From Tildeniella nuda ZEHNDER 1965/U140 (GTDB lineage: Bacteria > Cyanobacteriota > Cyanobacteriia > Leptolyngbyales > Leptolyngbyaceae): a stretch of 64,000 bases of DNA. The stretch is from contig JAHHIG010000002.1 in the NCBI GenBank assembly GCA_019358895.1, positions 248,001 to 312,000 of the forward strand, given 5' to 3'. Under the pieces are notes generated by a model that saw nothing but the letters and a program-made list of their open reading frames with translations, was not told where the DNA came from and made no database searches. The translations under genes were made by a program, and so were the position numbers. Below are positions 17,672-26,147 of the stretch, piece by piece (positions within the stretch are counted from its first letter, which is position 1; every line of letters starts with the position of its first letter).

Positions 17672-18373
17672 CTAGATCATCAGCCGTTCGAGTGCGTGAG
17701 GGTCGGGAATCGTGAGCGTGTCACGTTCACGCACAATCAGTCCTTTTTTTTCAAGCTTGCTTAAGACTCGCGTCACTGTTTCGCGCGCAAGACCACTAAG
17801 GCTACTCAGCTCACGATGGGGCAGGTTCGGAATTTCGGTACCCGTCGAGACCTTTTTACCTTGCCCGTCTGCCAGAAAGAGAAGGATGTCCGCAACGCGT
17901 GAGGTGCTGTCAGATTCGCGTAACCGCAAGCGACGGTTGACTTGTCGCAAACGGCGTGCCATTAGCTGCGCCAGCCGAATGCCTGATTGAGGCTCGGTGT
18001 GCAGTAGATTGACAAAATCCTGCGCGGGCATGTTGCCAATCACAGTCGGAGCGAGGGTAATCACATCGGTCGATCGAGGCACTTCGTCCAGGGGAGCCAT
18101 TTCGCCAAACAACTCGCCTTTGCCCAGAATGTTCAGCGTCACTTCCTTCCCATCTAGATTGTACGTGCGAATTTTGACCCAGCCGTTCAAAATAAAATAC
18201 ACCGAGCTACCCCAGTCATTCTCTAACAGAATCACCTGGTTAGCTGGATGGCTCCGCATCACAACCTGGGCTGTAGCTTTTTCAACCGCCGTCTCTGGGA
18301 GTCCTTCAAAGAAAGGAGCGGAACGAATCGATATGTTAGCTTGAGCATCTCTGGGACTATACCGATCTTCCAT
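17672..18373 (-). CDS. CRP/FNR-family transcriptional regulator, SYCRP1-like
   Basis: The 233-residue protein has a cyclic-nucleotide-binding domain (about 18-135) and a C-terminal winged helix (about 150-225) with a recognition-helix region REL SSLSGLARETVTRVL. The binding-pocket signature GEMAPLDEVPRSTDV keeps the glutamate and the R-S pair that contact cAMP in E. coli CRP, so cAMP binding is plausible. The sequence resembles the cyanobacterial cAMP receptor SYCRP1 (for example NDWGSSVYFILNGWVKIRT). NtcA lacks this cAMP signature, so that identity is less likely. An 819-bp spacer lies upstream. Confidence 0.85.
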   Translation of the reverse strand: MEDRYSPRDAQANISIRSAPFFEGLPETAVEKATAQVVMRSHPANQVILLENDWGSSVYFILNGWVKIRTYNLDGKEVTLNILGKGELFGEMAPLDEVPRSTDVITLAPTVIGNMPAQDFVNLLHTEPQSGIRLAQLMARRLRQVNRRLRLRESDSTSRVADILLFLADGQGKKVSTGTEIPNLPHRELSSLSGLARETVTRVLSKLEKKGLIVRERDTLTIPDPHALERLMI

Positions 18374-19192: not shown

Positions 19193-22100
19193 GTGACTTC
19201 TCAGAAGGATCAAATTCAAGCGCTGATTACAGATATCGATGGTGTGCTTCAAAAGACGACTCCCCGTCTTCCGTGGGTGGTGTCTGGCGAGATGACGCAA
19301 CAGCGCCAGGTTCTGGAGCGCGTACGCAATTACTTGGTAACCTTTCAGCGGAGCGTGGGTGAAAGCGTTGGGCAAGGGGGAGCCAGACCAGACCTGCTGG
19401 CGCATGATATCTACTACCAGCCGCAAGCGTCCTACTCATCGCCTCCCGTCGATGCTCAAGCTGAGCGATCGCAGCCGTATAGCCCAGACGAACTGACAGC
19501 GCAACAGATGCTACAGGCGATCGTCCAGGAAATGGGGTATCTACGCTCTAACCTGATGCAGCCGCTTCAATCAGATGTGGAGCTTTTGCGACAACAGCGA
19601 GAATCGTTAGCACAAGAAATCCGTCAGCTTGAGGCACAGCGGCAGGGTTACGCAGGACAGCTACCGAGCAACCAACAGCAGGTGATAACGGAGTTTTTGC
19701 AGGCATTGATGAGCCGACTGCAAGAAACGCTGCCGCAGCAGGTGGCACAGACCTTGAGGAGTGGCAATCAACAGTCATTGCCCTATGGCGCTAACCTGGC
19801 ACTGACAGGCTCGGCTCCATCCATTGCGGCGACATCAGAATCGCCCTCTCAAGGGTCTGGCAATATTCAGATCGCGCAGTCGCAGTCAGATGAACTGCTG
19901 ACCAAGCTAGATTCCACTCTCAGCGTTGTGTTTGAGTCTTTGCAGCGAAACGTGCAGGCATACGAAGAGTCTCTCTCTCAAGGGCTGGATAAGATGCACA
20001 GCCTGGGACAGCAGGGCGAGATGATGTTTACAGCGCTGATTAGTCATTTAGCGAATCAGCTTGGGCACGAAGCCTCTTCCTATCTACAGTCGCCTGCTGC
20101 AACCGGACTGGAGTCAGCGCGACTAGCCAGCCCACAGGTTGCGCCAACAGTGCCCGATCGCTCGCAACCATCCCAACTAACGGTGGCTGGGGCTAATTCA
20201 TCCTTATTTGAGCAACCCAATGCCACTGCTGTCTCACGACCGTTAACACTGCCGTTCCCTGGTACTGAAATCTCCAGTCGCTTTTCCGAGGCGGTGCCTG
20301 CGTCTGCTGCAAATCTACCTGAACCATCGGTAGATACTGCGATCGATTCCTGGCTTCGCTCTGCTAGTGGTGTCGATGCTACACCAGCGGTTGATTTCGA
20401 GCTGGCTGAATTAAATCTGGAAGGCTTTGATTTAAACCAGTTAGCAGCCCAAGACGTGAACGCGCTACTGGAACTGGATGCAAATCTACTGGGCACCAAT
20501 CTATCGCCTCAGCCGATCTTAGCGCCAATCGAGCCGATCGATTCACCGCCTCAACCGATCGCTAACGAGATGTCGTCAGGTGCCATGAGCGCTGAAGATA
20601 CCGCTGACATTGATGCGGCGCTCAAGCTATTAGAACAGCTAAGCTCGGAATTGCAGGATCAGCCAGCGTCGGTAGCAGATGCAGACGCTCAGATTGATCG
20701 GATGTTGAGTACTCCTTCATCACTAGCGGAAGAAACCGCAGCAGCTAGTATCCCTGATGATGCACAGGACGAGCTGGACGAGTTCTACGAAAGTTTATTT
20801 GGCAACAACGCGATCGCGGTTGAACCGTCCTTAGAACCAGCAGTGACAGACAGCCTTGATTCTGCACCTGCGATCGCTGCCGTAGACCCAACATCCACGA
20901 GCGCGCCAGTTACGTCGCCGTTGACCGCTCAACCAATTGACACACTCCCCGCTGAGACGCAAGCACTTACAGAGACGCTAGTGGCACCTGACACCGTTGC
21001 TGCCCCCGCAGTGTCTACAGCCGTTGACCCTACTTTAGGTTGGGATTTGCTGGCAAAGCCGTCAAGTACCCAGGCTACAGAACTAGACATTCCGGCAGCA
21101 CTGTTGGAAGACGAGTTGCTCAGCGGCTGGGATTTTGAAGAGACTGAGGTTGGCTTAACGGAGCCTGAACCAATACCTGTTAGCGATGAACTGTTAGATA
21201 CTTGGGATGCTGACGCTGCGAGCGATCGCGCCCCATTCGTGGCTGATACGCTTACCCAGCCGCCAATCGACACGACAGCAACTGTCTCCAGCGATAGCCA
21301 GGATTCAGCTACAGCGATCAATGCAGACGTTTTAGTGTCAGATACCGCGCCAACGCTTGAGCCACCCGGTAGTACAGACGAAATTGCTGCCCTGACAGAT
21401 TTGTTTGACGAACCGATGCCTGCTGAACCACTAGAAGCACCGATCGCGAATCCTGTAGTACCACCACAGAGCTTCAGTCAATCTCCAGTTGAGGCTTCCC
21501 CCAACACGATTGCACCGACCTTGCCAGAATCTACTCCGAAGCTTGCTGATCAGGTAGAAAACCGTTTGGGAGACGATCGCTATACGCCTGCGTCACCAGA
21601 AGAAGATTTGCTACCGCTTGCCGATCCCGCTGATGAATTGGACTCTGAACTATGGTTGGATGAAAGTACGTTGAATCGCTTGAGCGAAGACCTTTTCAGC
21701 TTAGAAGAGACGATCAGCGAGCCATCAATCCTGTCGTATGACGTTGAACCTGGAGCCGATACAGCAACACTGTACTCAGAAGCAACAGCACCCTATGAAA
21801 CGGCACCTTATGCGGATGAGCCGATAGCTTTAGAAGACTGGAGTACCTCGCTGAATGAGCTTGCTGATAACGTACCCACAACCGACTCAACGCCAGATTC
21901 CACCGAGTCTGAACGTACCGCGATCGTCGCCGAAGAGCCAAGCGCTTTCATTCTGGAGGGGATGGATGATCTATTCACAAACACCCCTATCGTACTGCCT
22001 GTTACGCCGATCCCACCTCCGATCGTCTCCACGCAAGCAGAGCCATCGGCTGCTTTTACGCTAGAGGGAATGGATGATTTGTTTGGAGATTCTCAAACTG

Positions 22101-23023
22101 ACCCCGTACCCTTGCCACCAACCTCGTTTCCAATCGCAACCCAGCCGCCATTTACCCTGGAAGGGATTGATGACCTGTTTAGCGATGCCCCAATCGTCAG
22201 TTCGGCACCGCTAACACCATCTTCAGACGCTCCATCAGACCAATCCCTACCATTCACTTTAGAAGGGGTCGATGAGCTTTTTGCCGATGCCCTTCCCATT
22301 GCTGATGTACCTCCAGTACCGCCCGAAACGGTGGACGTAGGCTTGCTAACCCAACCGGGAACTGCCGCAGATTTTACTCTGGACACAGCAGGTGATCCTG
22401 GTGATCTCTTTGTGGCAGCGCCAACGGCTGTGCCGTCACCAGAAAGCGCATCCACCGAAGCGATCGCGCCACCTGCGTCACCCTCACCTAGCCTGACTTC
22501 GGAGTCTACTGCAGATTTTACTCTAGACACAGCAGGTGATCCTGGCGATCTCTTCGTGGCAGCGCCAACGGCTGTGCCGTTACCAGAAAGTGTGTCCACC
22601 GAAGCGATCGCTCTACCCTCATCGTCCCTACCAAACCCGGCTTCTACACCCGTTGCCCCGTTTACCTTTGAACAAGTGGGCGACTTATTCATAGAAGTGC
22701 CGTCTGGGGAACTGCCTTTTCACGAGCAACCGACGAATGAGCTACCAGGTGCCGATTTTTTGATCGCCGAACCCTCTGCTCCAGTCCCTGAACCGCTTGT
22801 ACCATTCACGCTAGAGCAGGTGGGTGATGTGTTCATGGAAGTGCCCTCTGAAGAAGCAATTCCAGACGCGCTGGCTGCCTCGCCGAACCCACAACCGTCG
22901 TCTCCGCCCCCAGCCGAACCGTCAACCTTGGAGCAAGCCTTTGCCAGTCTGATGGGTTCCTTTGGCGATCCAATGTCAGCCGACGATGGGACAGACGCTC
23001 AAGATGCTGAAAAAAAAAAGTAG
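19193..23023 (+). CDS. Giant acidic protein with C-terminal FTLEG-DDLF motif repeats
   Basis: This 1276-residue protein starts at GTG 19193. The N-terminal part (about 1-290) is helical and glutamine-rich with probable coiled coils. The rest is acidic and rich in A, P, S, T and D, so probably disordered. From residue 919 a hydrophobic motif recurs: FILEGMDDLF (F919), FTLEGMDDLF (F955), FTLEGIDDLF (F987), FTLEGVDELF (F1021), FTLDTAGDPGDLF (F1061 and F1109), FTFEQVGDLF (F1157), FTLEQVGDVF (F1205) and a degenerate STLEQAF at 1244. I do not recognise the protein. Its arrangement suggests a scaffold presenting short docking motifs. The frame ends GAA AAA AAA AAG TAG; a -1 shift there joins it to the downstream Hsp70/actin-fold gene. 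Confidence 0.85.
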   Translation: MTSQKDQIQALITDIDGVLQKTTPRLPWVVSGEMTQQRQVLERVRNYLVTFQRSVGESVGQGGARPDLLAHDIYYQPQASYSSPPVDAQAERSQPYSPDELTAQQMLQAIVQEMGYLRSNLMQPLQSDVELLRQQRESLAQEIRQLEAQRQGYAGQLPSNQQQVITEFLQALMSRLQETLPQQVAQTLRSGNQQSLPYGANLALTGSAPSIAATSESPSQGSGNIQIAQSQSDELLTKLDSTLSVVFESLQRNVQAYEESLSQGLDKMHSLGQQGEMMFTALISHLANQLGHEASSYLQSPAATGLESARLASPQVAPTVPDRSQPSQLTVAGANSSLFEQPNATAVSRPLTLPFPGTEISSRFSEAVPASAANLPEPSVDTAIDSWLRSASGVDATPAVDFELAELNLEGFDLNQLAAQDVNALLELDANLLGTNLSPQPILAPIEPIDSPPQPIANEMSSGAMSAEDTADIDAALKLLEQLSSELQDQPASVADADAQIDRMLSTPSSLAEETAAASIPDDAQDELDEFYESLFGNNAIAVEPSLEPAVTDSLDSAPAIAAVDPTSTSAPVTSPLTAQPIDTLPAETQALTETLVAPDTVAAPAVSTAVDPTLGWDLLAKPSSTQATELDIPAALLEDELLSGWDFEETEVGLTEPEPIPVSDELLDTWDADAASDRAPFVADTLTQPPIDTTATVSSDSQDSATAINADVLVSDTAPTLEPPGSTDEIAALTDLFDEPMPAEPLEAPIANPVVPPQSFSQSPVEASPNTIAPTLPESTPKLADQVENRLGDDRYTPASPEEDLLPLADPADELDSELWLDESTLNRLSEDLFSLEETISEPSILSYDVEPGADTATLYSEATAPYETAPYADEPIALEDWSTSLNELADNVPTTDSTPDSTESERTAIVAEEPSAFILEGMDDLFTNTPIVLPVTPIPPPIVSTQAEPSAAFTLEGMDDLFGDSQTDPVPLPPTSFPIATQPPFTLEGIDDLFSDAPIVSSAPLTPSSDAPSDQSLPFTLEGVDELFADALPIADVPPVPPETVDVGLLTQPGTAADFTLDTAGDPGDLFVAAPTAVPSPESASTEAIAPPASPSPSLTSESTADFTLDTAGDPGDLFVAAPTAVPLPESVSTEAIALPSSSLPNPASTPVAPFTFEQVGDLFIEVPSGELPFHEQPTNELPGADFLIAEPSAPVPEPLVPFTLEQVGDVFMEVPSEEAIPDALAASPNPQPSSPPPAEPSTLEQAFASLMGSFGDPMSADDGTDAQDAEKKK
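22370..22657 (+). repeat. 144-bp tandem duplication inside the repeat-protein gene
   Basis: The 48-codon unit beginning at D1060 is followed directly by a near copy beginning at D1108. The first 22 residues of each copy (DFTLDTAGDPGDLF and onward) are identical, while the last half has drifted. The duplication adds one complete docking-motif unit in frame. Confidence 0.85.
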
Positions 23024-23052
23024 CTGAGCTAACGACTAACCGCTTAGAAGCG
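23010..23052 (+). promoter_or_regulatory. Candidate -1 frameshift site: A AAA AAG with two downstream stem-loops
   Basis: A run of ten A (23010-23019) followed by G gives the zero-frame reading GAA AAA AAA AAG TAG, which contains the heptamer A AAA AAG in the correct phase, as in E. coli dnaX. After a -1 slip the ribosome would avoid the TAG and enter the open frame of the ATPase gene. Right after it are a short stem TAGC-TGA-GCTA (23021-23031) and CGCT-TAGA-AGCG (23041-23052). A run of ten A also allows transcriptional slippage, as in Thermus dnaX. A homopolymer sequencing error would give the same picture. Confidence 0.6.
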
Positions 23053-23055
23053 CCA

Positions 23056-24993
23056 GTGCCCAGCGCTCAACCTGATTTGTCAGTGGAAGGCTCGATCGCG
23101 CCCCTAACAGAGCTATCTCCAGCAGAACTAGAGAACGCGATCGCTGCGATAGACCCACCCGAAGCTGATGCAGCGGCAGCCGTCGCAACTTGGTGTCTGG
23201 GCATTGATGTGGGCACAACAGAAATCACAGCCGTCTTGTTGCAGGTTCAGACAGGGCAGACCTATCCCATTGTTTGGCAAGAGGTGGAAGCACCCGATCA
23301 GCCAGCGCTGGCTGGTCTACCTGCGATCGTTTATCTATCTGCTCAACAATTCAAGCACCTGCCTGAAGTGCCAAATGCATTAGGGTATCAGGCGCTGGAG
23401 TCCGCCTTAACCGCTGCCAACCAGCCAGATACAGGGCTATTGCTGAGCAACTTTAAACCTTATCTCAAGGCTGGTACGCCTTATCTGAGTGAGCAACAGC
23501 ATTGGGAGCCAGTTTTACAATGGTCTGACCAGCAGCCTCTGAGTCTCCAGTGGTTACAGCAGGCGCTGGTGGCTCTCCTGCAAACGCTAAAGGGAAGGAC
23601 GCTTGGCTTAATCAGCACTGCCCCAGCGATGACACAAGAGGCATTTCAAGCCGCGATCGAGCACATCACAAGCGTGATCATTGGGTGCCCAACCGGATGG
23701 TCAGATACGTATTGCTTTAATCTACGAGAAGCAGTGCTGGCGACGGGTTTAGTCGATCGTGCTGAACAGATTTACTTCCTTGAAGAGGCGATCGCGGCAC
23801 TGCTCGCTACACTACCTCAACCAGCCGTCCAGCGTCCGTCCAGCGTCGCCTCTTCTGCTGTTACTGACAGCCGTTCTGACAGCTCATTGCAGGGTAGCAC
23901 TCTGGTCTTGAGTGCGGGTGCCACGACGACGGAGCTTTTGCTGGTTGATCTGCCCCGCGACTTAGCAGTTGAACAGTCCGATCGCACCTTCTTAACCCGC
24001 GAAGGCTTGTATCTACGTAGCCTTGCCTATGCAGGCGATGCGATCGACCAGGACATTATTTGCCAGATTCTCTATCCATCTGCCTGGAGTTGGGGCAGCC
24101 TGGATTTACAAAGCCTGGACTTGCCATTACCGGGAGAGCCAGACCAGAATGCCCGCGATCGCCTACAGCAACGGCTACGCAACAGTGATTTAGGACAACA
24201 ATTGCTGAATGCTGCCAGACAGCTCAAACTGGCGTTGCAGCAGCAAGATACGGCAACGTTTAAGTTGAACGACCAGCAGTGGACGGTCAGCCAACAGGAT
24301 TTGCACAGCCGCGTCACAATGCCCTACCTTCAGCAATTAAACCGAGAGCTAAATGTCTTGCTCAATCAGAGTGGCATTGCGGTACAAGCCGTACAGCAAG
24401 TGATTTGTACGGGTAGAACGATGGCGCTACCTGCGATCGCCCACTGGCTTAAGCAGAAACTGCCCAACACGCGCGTACTTCAAGATGATGAACTATCCGG
24501 TATGGTTAGCAACCGCATCGCTGTTGGTCTGGCAACGCTGCCTCTCTACCCACAGATGTTGGATGCAGTGCGCCATCAATACAGCGATTACTTTCTGCTG
24601 CACGAACTGGTGCGGCTCTTACCAGATGAGTCGCTTTCAGTTGGACGCATTCTGCAACTGTTAGAAAAGCAAGGCATTAACACCAACTTCTGCCAGCGTC
24701 CTATCCTCAGACTCCTGGAAGGACGCTTGCCAGAGGGACTGTTGCCCTCTAACACGGCTGCGATGCTCACACTTGAATCACAGCAAAACCCTGATTATCA
24801 AGCGTTGATGGCACAACCGCTGTTTTCTAGAGAGGGTAATCAGCTCTACGGGTTCAAGCCGGAACTGCGCGATCGCCTCCAACAGTACCTGACTGCTATC
24901 CTGGCAAATACCCATCAGACCCTGGCAGAGCCGCTGTTAATTGAGCTAGGCGCTGAAGTGAGGAATGAAGGCTACAACGTTCTGCCTATGTGA
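23056..24993 (+). CDS. Hsp70/actin-fold ATPase, partner of the repeat protein
   Basis: The 645-residue product has the ATPase signatures in order. These are phosphate-1 LGIDVGTTEITAVLL (D51), the helix AEQIYFLEEAIAALLATL, phosphate-2 LVLSAGATTTELLLVDL (about 283-300), a connector GDAIDQDI, the adenosine motif VICTGRTMALPAIAHWL (about 449) and a second connector RIAVGLATLPLYP. This is the Hsp70/actin fold, without the DnaK substrate domain and with its own C-terminal helical region (about 500-645). The GTG start at 23056 has no good ribosome site, and the frame stays open upstream to 23011. It may therefore be made only by coupling or by -1 frameshifting from the upstream gene, as part of a 1933-residue fusion. 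The function is unknown. Confidence 0.8.
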   Translation: MPSAQPDLSVEGSIAPLTELSPAELENAIAAIDPPEADAAAAVATWCLGIDVGTTEITAVLLQVQTGQTYPIVWQEVEAPDQPALAGLPAIVYLSAQQFKHLPEVPNALGYQALESALTAANQPDTGLLLSNFKPYLKAGTPYLSEQQHWEPVLQWSDQQPLSLQWLQQALVALLQTLKGRTLGLISTAPAMTQEAFQAAIEHITSVIIGCPTGWSDTYCFNLREAVLATGLVDRAEQIYFLEEAIAALLATLPQPAVQRPSSVASSAVTDSRSDSSLQGSTLVLSAGATTTELLLVDLPRDLAVEQSDRTFLTREGLYLRSLAYAGDAIDQDIICQILYPSAWSWGSLDLQSLDLPLPGEPDQNARDRLQQRLRNSDLGQQLLNAARQLKLALQQQDTATFKLNDQQWTVSQQDLHSRVTMPYLQQLNRELNVLLNQSGIAVQAVQQVICTGRTMALPAIAHWLKQKLPNTRVLQDDELSGMVSNRIAVGLATLPLYPQMLDAVRHQYSDYFLLHELVRLLPDESLSVGRILQLLEKQGINTNFCQRPILRLLEGRLPEGLLPSNTAAMLTLESQQNPDYQALMAQPLFSREGNQLYGFKPELRDRLQQYLTAILANTHQTLAEPLLIELGAEVRNEGYNVLPM

Positions 24994-25053: not shown

Positions 25054-25533
25054 ATGACGATGGCGGACGATCGAGAGCTAGACTTGCAAACCAACGACGC
25101 GCTAGATGATGTTGACCTGGATACCGACGATCTTGATACTGATGATTTTGTAGAGCCAGATTCAGGCGATCTGCCCCAAGAAATGACGGAGTCATACGGC
25201 ACAGGTGTGCATGACCAACCGGGATTTGCAGCGGGTGGACGCACGATGCGCGACCGTGCGAGTGACTTCAATGAGGCTAGTCCCACGCTTACAGGTGGCG
25301 ACGTTGATGGGAACTATGAGCAAGCGAATGCCGATGGCGACGAGTCGGTTGGTGGTACCGTTTCCACACCGGATATGGATGTAGTGGATGAACTCGGTGC
25401 GGCTGTAGGACTAGAGATGAACGAGCGCTCCTTTCTCCGCACAAATGACGTGCTGGAAGAGCGTGATTCTCGCCGTTGGGAGCTGGAGCCAACCTCCTCA
25501 GAAGATTACACCGAGCGGAGAGACGAGGAGTAA
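25054..25533 (+). CDS. DUF6335-like acidic cyanobacterial protein
   Basis: This 159-residue, very acidic protein starts [12 protein letters not shown] and has an aspartate-rich segment (16-40). The conserved tail includes [55 protein letters not shown] and [13 protein letters not shown] recognise these as a recurring cyanobacterial family (probably DUF6335) of unknown role. A GGAG ribosome site precedes the ATG by 9 bp. It follows the ATPase gene by 60 bp in the same direction, so co-transcription is possible. No enzyme motif is seen. Confidence 0.7.
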
Positions 25534-25595
25534 GGCGATCGCGCCCGTCTGCCCACCCTCACACTGTTCATTGCTTCCTTTGCTGCCCCAAAAAT

Positions 25596-26147
25596 ATGGC
25601 TAGACCGCGCAAACGCACAAAGCAGATTGAGAAGGCTGCTCAGGAGCATTTTGGTTATGACGACCTTCGACCTGGACAGGAAGCGGCAATTCAATCCGTC
25701 TTAAATCGGCAAGATACCCTTGTGGTGATGCCAACGGGTTCTGGTAAGTCTGCTATTTACCAAATTGCAGCGGTAGAACTGTCCGGTCCTACAGTCTTTG
25801 TCTCGCCGCTTCTTGCCTTGCAAAAAGATCAGGTAGACGCGATCGAGAATCAAAATCTGGGTGGTGCAGCACAGGTCAATTCAACTATTCGGGAAGGCGA
25901 TCGCCAGGATGCTTTTGACCACTTAAAGACAGGCAAGCTTGAATTCATCTTTCTGGCTCCCGAACAGTTTAAGAATCCAGAAACGCTGGAGCATCTCCAG
26001 ACCACAAAGCCATCTCTGTTTGTAGTCGATGAGGTACACTGCATCAGTGAATGGGGACATGATGTTCGTCCCGATTACCGACGCTTGGGAGCCGTGATCG
26101 AAGCCAGTTACACATCAGCCCGTCAACCTGTACCGCTGTGGTCATGA
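25596..26147 (+). pseudogene. Truncated RecQ-family helicase (N-terminal ATPase half only)
   Basis: From ATG 25596 ([20 protein letters not shown]) the frame encodes about 183 residues matching the start of RecQ-like helicases. It has Q-motif [10 protein letters not shown], Walker A MPTGSGKS, motif Ia [14 protein letters not shown] and motif [28 protein letters not shown]. It then changes abruptly to an unrelated [13 protein letters not shown] and stops. Motif III (the TAT motif), the second RecA domain and everything after it are missing, and no frame nearby resumes the homology. The gene is probably a remnant after a deletion. The frame could be read from 25476, but that part overlaps the upstream gene and matches nothing. 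Confidence 0.85.

Follow-up and report, generated by a model that had tools for sequence, protein, structure and literature searches.

A coiled-coil scaffold with a motif-bearing acidic tail and an Hsp70-type ATPase belong to an undescribed cyanobacterial family

Two adjacent open reading frames in a 64,000-nucleotide stretch of the genome of Tildeniella nuda ZEHNDER 1965/U140 (contig JAHHIG010000002.1; the window, to which all positions refer unless stated otherwise) raise the question of whether a protein with a long, motif-rich tail and an ATPase of the actin/Hsp70 superfamily form one system, and of what the motifs bind. Both ORFs lie on the forward strand, the upstream one (19193-23023) encoding a protein of 1276 residues, here called the scaffold, and the downstream one (23056-24993) an ATPase of 645 residues. 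A preliminary description of this DNA, made from the sequence alone, had placed the two ORFs correctly and regarded them as a functional pair in which the motifs might recruit the ATPase.

The GTG start of the scaffold is consistent with the aligned N-termini of its relatives (MTSQKDQIQ...). Residues 1-300 (19193-20092, forward strand) comprise a conserved N-terminal helical segment and a coiled coil, identified from the alignment and from the helices predicted for a fused relative; the coil itself extends over about residues 110-290, in line with the coiled-coil N-terminal part described before. Searched against PDB sequences, the coil profile matched generic coiled coils only, ZapB being the best match, and the scaffold gave nothing above cut-off in Pfam or NCBIfam. 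The tail comprises nearly 1000 residues of low complexity, is rich in Pro, Ala, Ser and Thr, and contains 15-27 acidic and 0-3 basic residues per block of 100 between residues 401 and 1200. The acidic, motif-bearing tail is thus as the preliminary description had it, but of the nine motifs counted there we found eight clear FT(L/F)(E/D)...DLF copies, and a ninth would be degenerate.

The array of FTLEGxDDLF-type motifs extends from 21947 to 22834 on the forward strand, with copies starting at 21947, 22055, 22151, 22253, 22373, 22517, 22661 and 22805 (Phe at residues 919, 955, 987, 1021, 1061, 1109, 1157 and 1205). It is composed of four F(T/I)LEGxD(D/E)LF, two FTLDTAGDPGDLF and two FT(L/F)EQxGD(L/V)F motifs, and FTLEGMDDLFGD is one motif peptide. 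A regular expression written post hoc, with the copies already seen, counted eight motifs in the real tail and at most one in 2000 shuffles (mean 0.0005). Two motif copies are held by a 139-nt direct repeat with 84% identity, a tandem duplication within the array, and the motif arrays look like lineage-specific amplifications. When a profile of the motif was run over the organism's own 6.08 Mb genome, no other convincing copy was found outside the scaffold. Two further tail motifs lie on the same strand. M1 (DELDEFYESLFG, 20765-20800), matched by eye, is the counterpart of EVDxLYxSLFG in relatives, a strict pattern that occurs in 48 linkers of the family, and M2 (YTPASPEEDLLPL...LDESTLNRLSEDLFSLEE, 21581-21724) recurs across the family, its strict pattern (YIPASPxENLL...LDExxLxQLxxDLxxFE) being present in 29 linkers. 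Among the 58 relatives searched, strong M2 matches were confined to the scaffold-type protein, and the other proteins of the own genome yielded no convincing M2.

Adjacent genes in the split lineages, scaffold and ATPase are one polypeptide in many others, where a single ORF encodes the scaffold N-terminus followed by the ATPase in a chain of about 550-2600 residues. In a FastTree phylogeny of 92 ATPases, through which alone kinship was taken into account, 63 were fused to the scaffold and 29 split, and the two states changed at least nine times, three of these changes being forced by well-supported branches. Every heterocystous strain in the tree has the fused form; the nearest named relatives of the window organism include Stenomitos frigidus and S. 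rutilans. Compact forms, in which coil and ATPase are joined with almost no linker, also occur (L179, L180). Of 292 cyanobacterial genomes, 71 matched the ATPase profile and 67 the coil profile, whose matches include a paralogue in an EamA/DMT transporter; the two sets are largely the same genomes, co-occurrence having been named as a check in the preliminary description. We regard the repeated fusion or fission as strong evidence that the parts work together, and judging from these sequence comparisons the pair is very probably the split form of a single cyanobacterial protein and one functional unit. In the predicted model of a natural fusion from Desmonostoc, coil and ATPase were formed and the linker was disordered (pLDDT mostly 23-31), the only helices in it being short ones of low confidence at M1 and M2; docking of the motifs was sought in this model, and the tail stayed disordered.

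In 15 genomes of 10 genera the ATPase is absent and the scaffold is found at the syntenic place (L173-L176, L194, L195, L197-L205), usually with a length of 245-460 residues. Thirteen of these genomes belong to the window's own family and were assigned on having no ATPase match at E <= 1e-10 with the coil domain kept in place, and the phylum sample supplied the other two, G242 and G274. Twelve of the 15 scaffolds keep the motif, mostly near the extreme C-terminus, seven by profile match and five by an evident variant near the C-terminus, namely ITLADIDQLFADLPSL (L201), MTLTEIDQLFADVPSL (L202), FSLDGVENLFDDDASHQ (L203), FVLSDIADLFGPDV (L204) and ITLADVADLFKDLPHQP (L205). No motif was seen in L175, L176 and L195; L175 has kept M2. 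As the motif outlives the ATPase in these 12 genomes, its partner is probably not the ATPase, or not the ATPase only.

This result bears directly on the proposal of the preliminary description that the array docks the neighbouring ATPase, one scaffold recruiting several ATPase copies. The distribution of the recognisable motif, present in 17 of 29 split scaffolds vs 3 of 57 fused proteins, would fit such docking, as if the array had replaced the covalent link, with the limits that these counts are raw and not corrected for relatedness and that most of the split rows in which the array is long belong to one clade. However, 12 of the 29 split scaffolds have no recognisable motif, nor do 54 of the 57 fused proteins, and together with the persistence of the motif in ATPase-less genomes this makes docking of the ATPase unlikely. 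For the motifs of the ATPase-less strains a switch of partner once the ATPase had been lost is conceivable.

The structure of the ATPase was predicted with AlphaFold2 from an alignment of 63 sequences (pLDDT 88.6, pTM 0.89). The model consists of an Hsp70-type nucleotide-binding domain, about residues 44-500 (23185-24555), and a mostly helical, family-specific C-terminal domain of about 130 residues, about residues 501-630 (24556-24945), both encoded on the forward strand. Structure comparison with Foldseek and VIA-align grouped it with the nucleotide-binding domains of Hsp70/DnaK proteins (Z ~22, rmsd 3-4), the best DnaK match having a Z of 22.7 and an rmsd of 3.9 over 368 residues, and the 50 matches listed in each comparison were of the Hsp70 type except for one mixed crosslinking model. 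At the level of sequence the matches were weak. The Pfam HSP70 model (PF00012) scored 9.4 bits against a cut-off of 20.6, matching the nucleotide-binding part only, and PilM (TIGR01175) scored 13.1 bits against 133. The best NCBIfam match was YegD (PRK11678), which represents the single-domain relatives of Hsp70, but with 24.3 bits it remained far below its cut-off of 331 and spanned only the adenosine-binding end (residues 372-482). PDB sequence searches with the ATPase and its profile returned nothing useful and a PADLOC search nothing convincing. Both proteins thus stayed below the cut-offs of Pfam and NCBIfam, which supports the statement of the preliminary description that no named family is known for either partner.

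Less of the claim survives that the ATPase bears every Hsp70/actin signature: an Hsp70-type fold is predicted and the phosphate-1 Asp is present, but the phosphate-2 Asp is a Ser. By motif correspondence the adenosine Gly is conserved in 63 of 63 family members, the phosphate-1 Asp in 61 of 61, the E171-like Glu in 60 of 63 and the K70-like Lys in 58 of 63; the T199-like position varies. At the phosphate-2 position (the Asp of DLGGGT) 58 of 63 sequences have Ser or Asn and 2 have Asp, the correspondence being set by the motif and the secondary structure of the model, as the profile alignment with the host DnaK proteins covered residues 383-477 only and stopped short of this region. Because phosphate-1 Asp, Lys and Glu are conserved but the phosphate-2 Asp is lost, the residues suggest that ATP binding is likely and ATP hydrolysis uncertain. 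Two loci encode divergent, compact relatives of the ATPase that have no long tail and whose N-terminus is a short helical segment (L178:6542-7786, 415 residues, adjoining a CRP gene; L177:6126-8063, 646 residues).

Its predicted DnaK-type nucleotide-binding domain raises the possibility that the ATPase acts as a functional Hsp70 chaperone on the tail or on an associated envelope protein; pilus activity and polysaccharide production are linked by a DnaK/DnaJ pair in Nostoc punctiforme (PMC9239167). However, neither Pfam nor the PDB sequence search of the C-terminal domain, which retrieved no relative of residues 501-630, revealed a DnaK substrate-binding domain, as the preliminary description had noted, the phosphate-2 Asp is lost, and neither dnaJ nor grpE was recognised near the pair among the neighbouring ORFs annotated, all of which makes a chaperone function rather improbable. 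Fusion or linkage to a coiled-coil scaffold is a further difference from Hsp70/DnaK. Also improbable is that the ATPase forms actin-like filaments like ParM or FcmB, with the scaffold as membrane or cargo adaptor: the ATPase is in the same actin/Hsp70 superfamily, and FcmB/FcmC is a precedent for an actin-like protein with an interacting partner in filamentous cyanobacteria (PMC12645912), but ParM, MreB, MamK, FtsA and FcmB are all missing among the 50 structural matches listed per comparison, and the long N-terminal tails fused in many relatives would crowd a filament. Neither point is decisive, and the data as a whole are neutral on filament formation. By the account of the paper FcmB derives from plasmid-partitioning actins, which makes this partition-derived pair a different one from the scaffold and its ATPase (PMC12645912).

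The conserved neighbour of the pair is a divergent CRP/FNR-type regulator gene on the reverse strand (17672-18373), recognised by Pfam and by locus comparison. Its cluster was found in 47 of 55 loci, and it directly adjoins the ATPase locus in at least 40 of 53. All 15 ATPase-less scaffolds are flanked by this gene and by a Bac_transf sugar transferase, which lies downstream in 13 of the 53 ATPase loci; its nearest homologue in the strain of the window lies on another contig. A CRP-type operator was sought in the intergenic region between the divergent genes and none was found, and the conserved gene order may reflect plain ancestry. Beyond the CRP gene many filamentous strains (L073, L076, L118, L138 and others) have a conserved run of genes for a DUF2232 membrane protein, a protein weakly similar to CobT-type phosphoribosyltransferases and a small SlyX-like protein. 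In the window the ATPase is followed directly by a gene for a DUF6335 protein of 159 residues (25054-25533), which L064, L065 and L068 also have close to the pair but other lineages do not. A RecQ-like ORF of 223 residues (25476-26147) in the window matches the first part of RecQ only and looks truncated, the corresponding neighbour in L064 having 476 residues.

A second occurrence of the coil domain was found in EamA/DMT-family transporters (L164:6581-8515 on contig C4 of G000, and L165-L172), which have an N-terminal cytoplasmic coil homologous to that of the scaffold (E about 1e-14 to 1e-28), usually with one transporter per genome. Such a transporter is a possible membrane partner of the scaffold through pairing of the coils. 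HmpF proteins (Slr1301/HmpF), coiled-coil motility proteins of cyanobacteria that are absent from picocyanobacteria (PMC7002697), resemble the scaffold by description as coiled-coil proteins of this phylum, but HmpF was rejected as the coil paralogue, as the second coil-domain match in these genomes is the EamA/DMT transporter.

Taken as a whole, the data are best read as a coiled-coil scaffold with a putative partner bound to its tail and normally controlled by an Hsp70-type ATPase, a reading to which we assign a probability of about 0.5. In such an assembly the coil would multimerise the scaffold chain, the tail motifs would bind a non-ATPase partner through many weak contacts, and ATP binding, perhaps with slow hydrolysis, would open or close the assembly or set its lifetime, the nucleotide-binding domain acting in cis where it is fused and as a bound subunit where the genes are split. 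Gene order, with the CRP-type regulator and the sugar transferase, makes the envelope or exopolysaccharide machinery the first candidate for the motif partner. This assignment is a guess from association; it gains plausibility from the DnaK1/DnaJ3 system of Nostoc, a different protein, through which polysaccharide production is coupled to pilus activity (PMC9239167). Similarly speculative is the more specific proposal that the Hsp70-type domain with its altered phosphate-2 site might, by binding ATP, act as a switch for a disordered, multivalent scaffold, whose clustered motifs would organise a site of envelope or polysaccharide assembly, with the motif number tuned by repeat amplification and the ATPase dispensable without loss of the scaffold.

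Scaffold and ATPase constitute a real, undescribed cyanobacterial family with a known fold and an architecture not known from elsewhere; a literature search, with most subscription journals outside its coverage, found no paper describing it. The family is present in about a quarter of the sampled cyanobacterial genomes (71 of 292), and no name or domain model for it was found. Its three modules, the oligomerising coil, the disordered tail rich in motifs and the Hsp70-type nucleotide-binding domain, exist naturally in fused and split form and without the ATPase, so that their roles are testable with natural variants, and the lineages free of the ATPase amount to a natural experiment on the contribution of an Hsp70-type domain to a scaffold.
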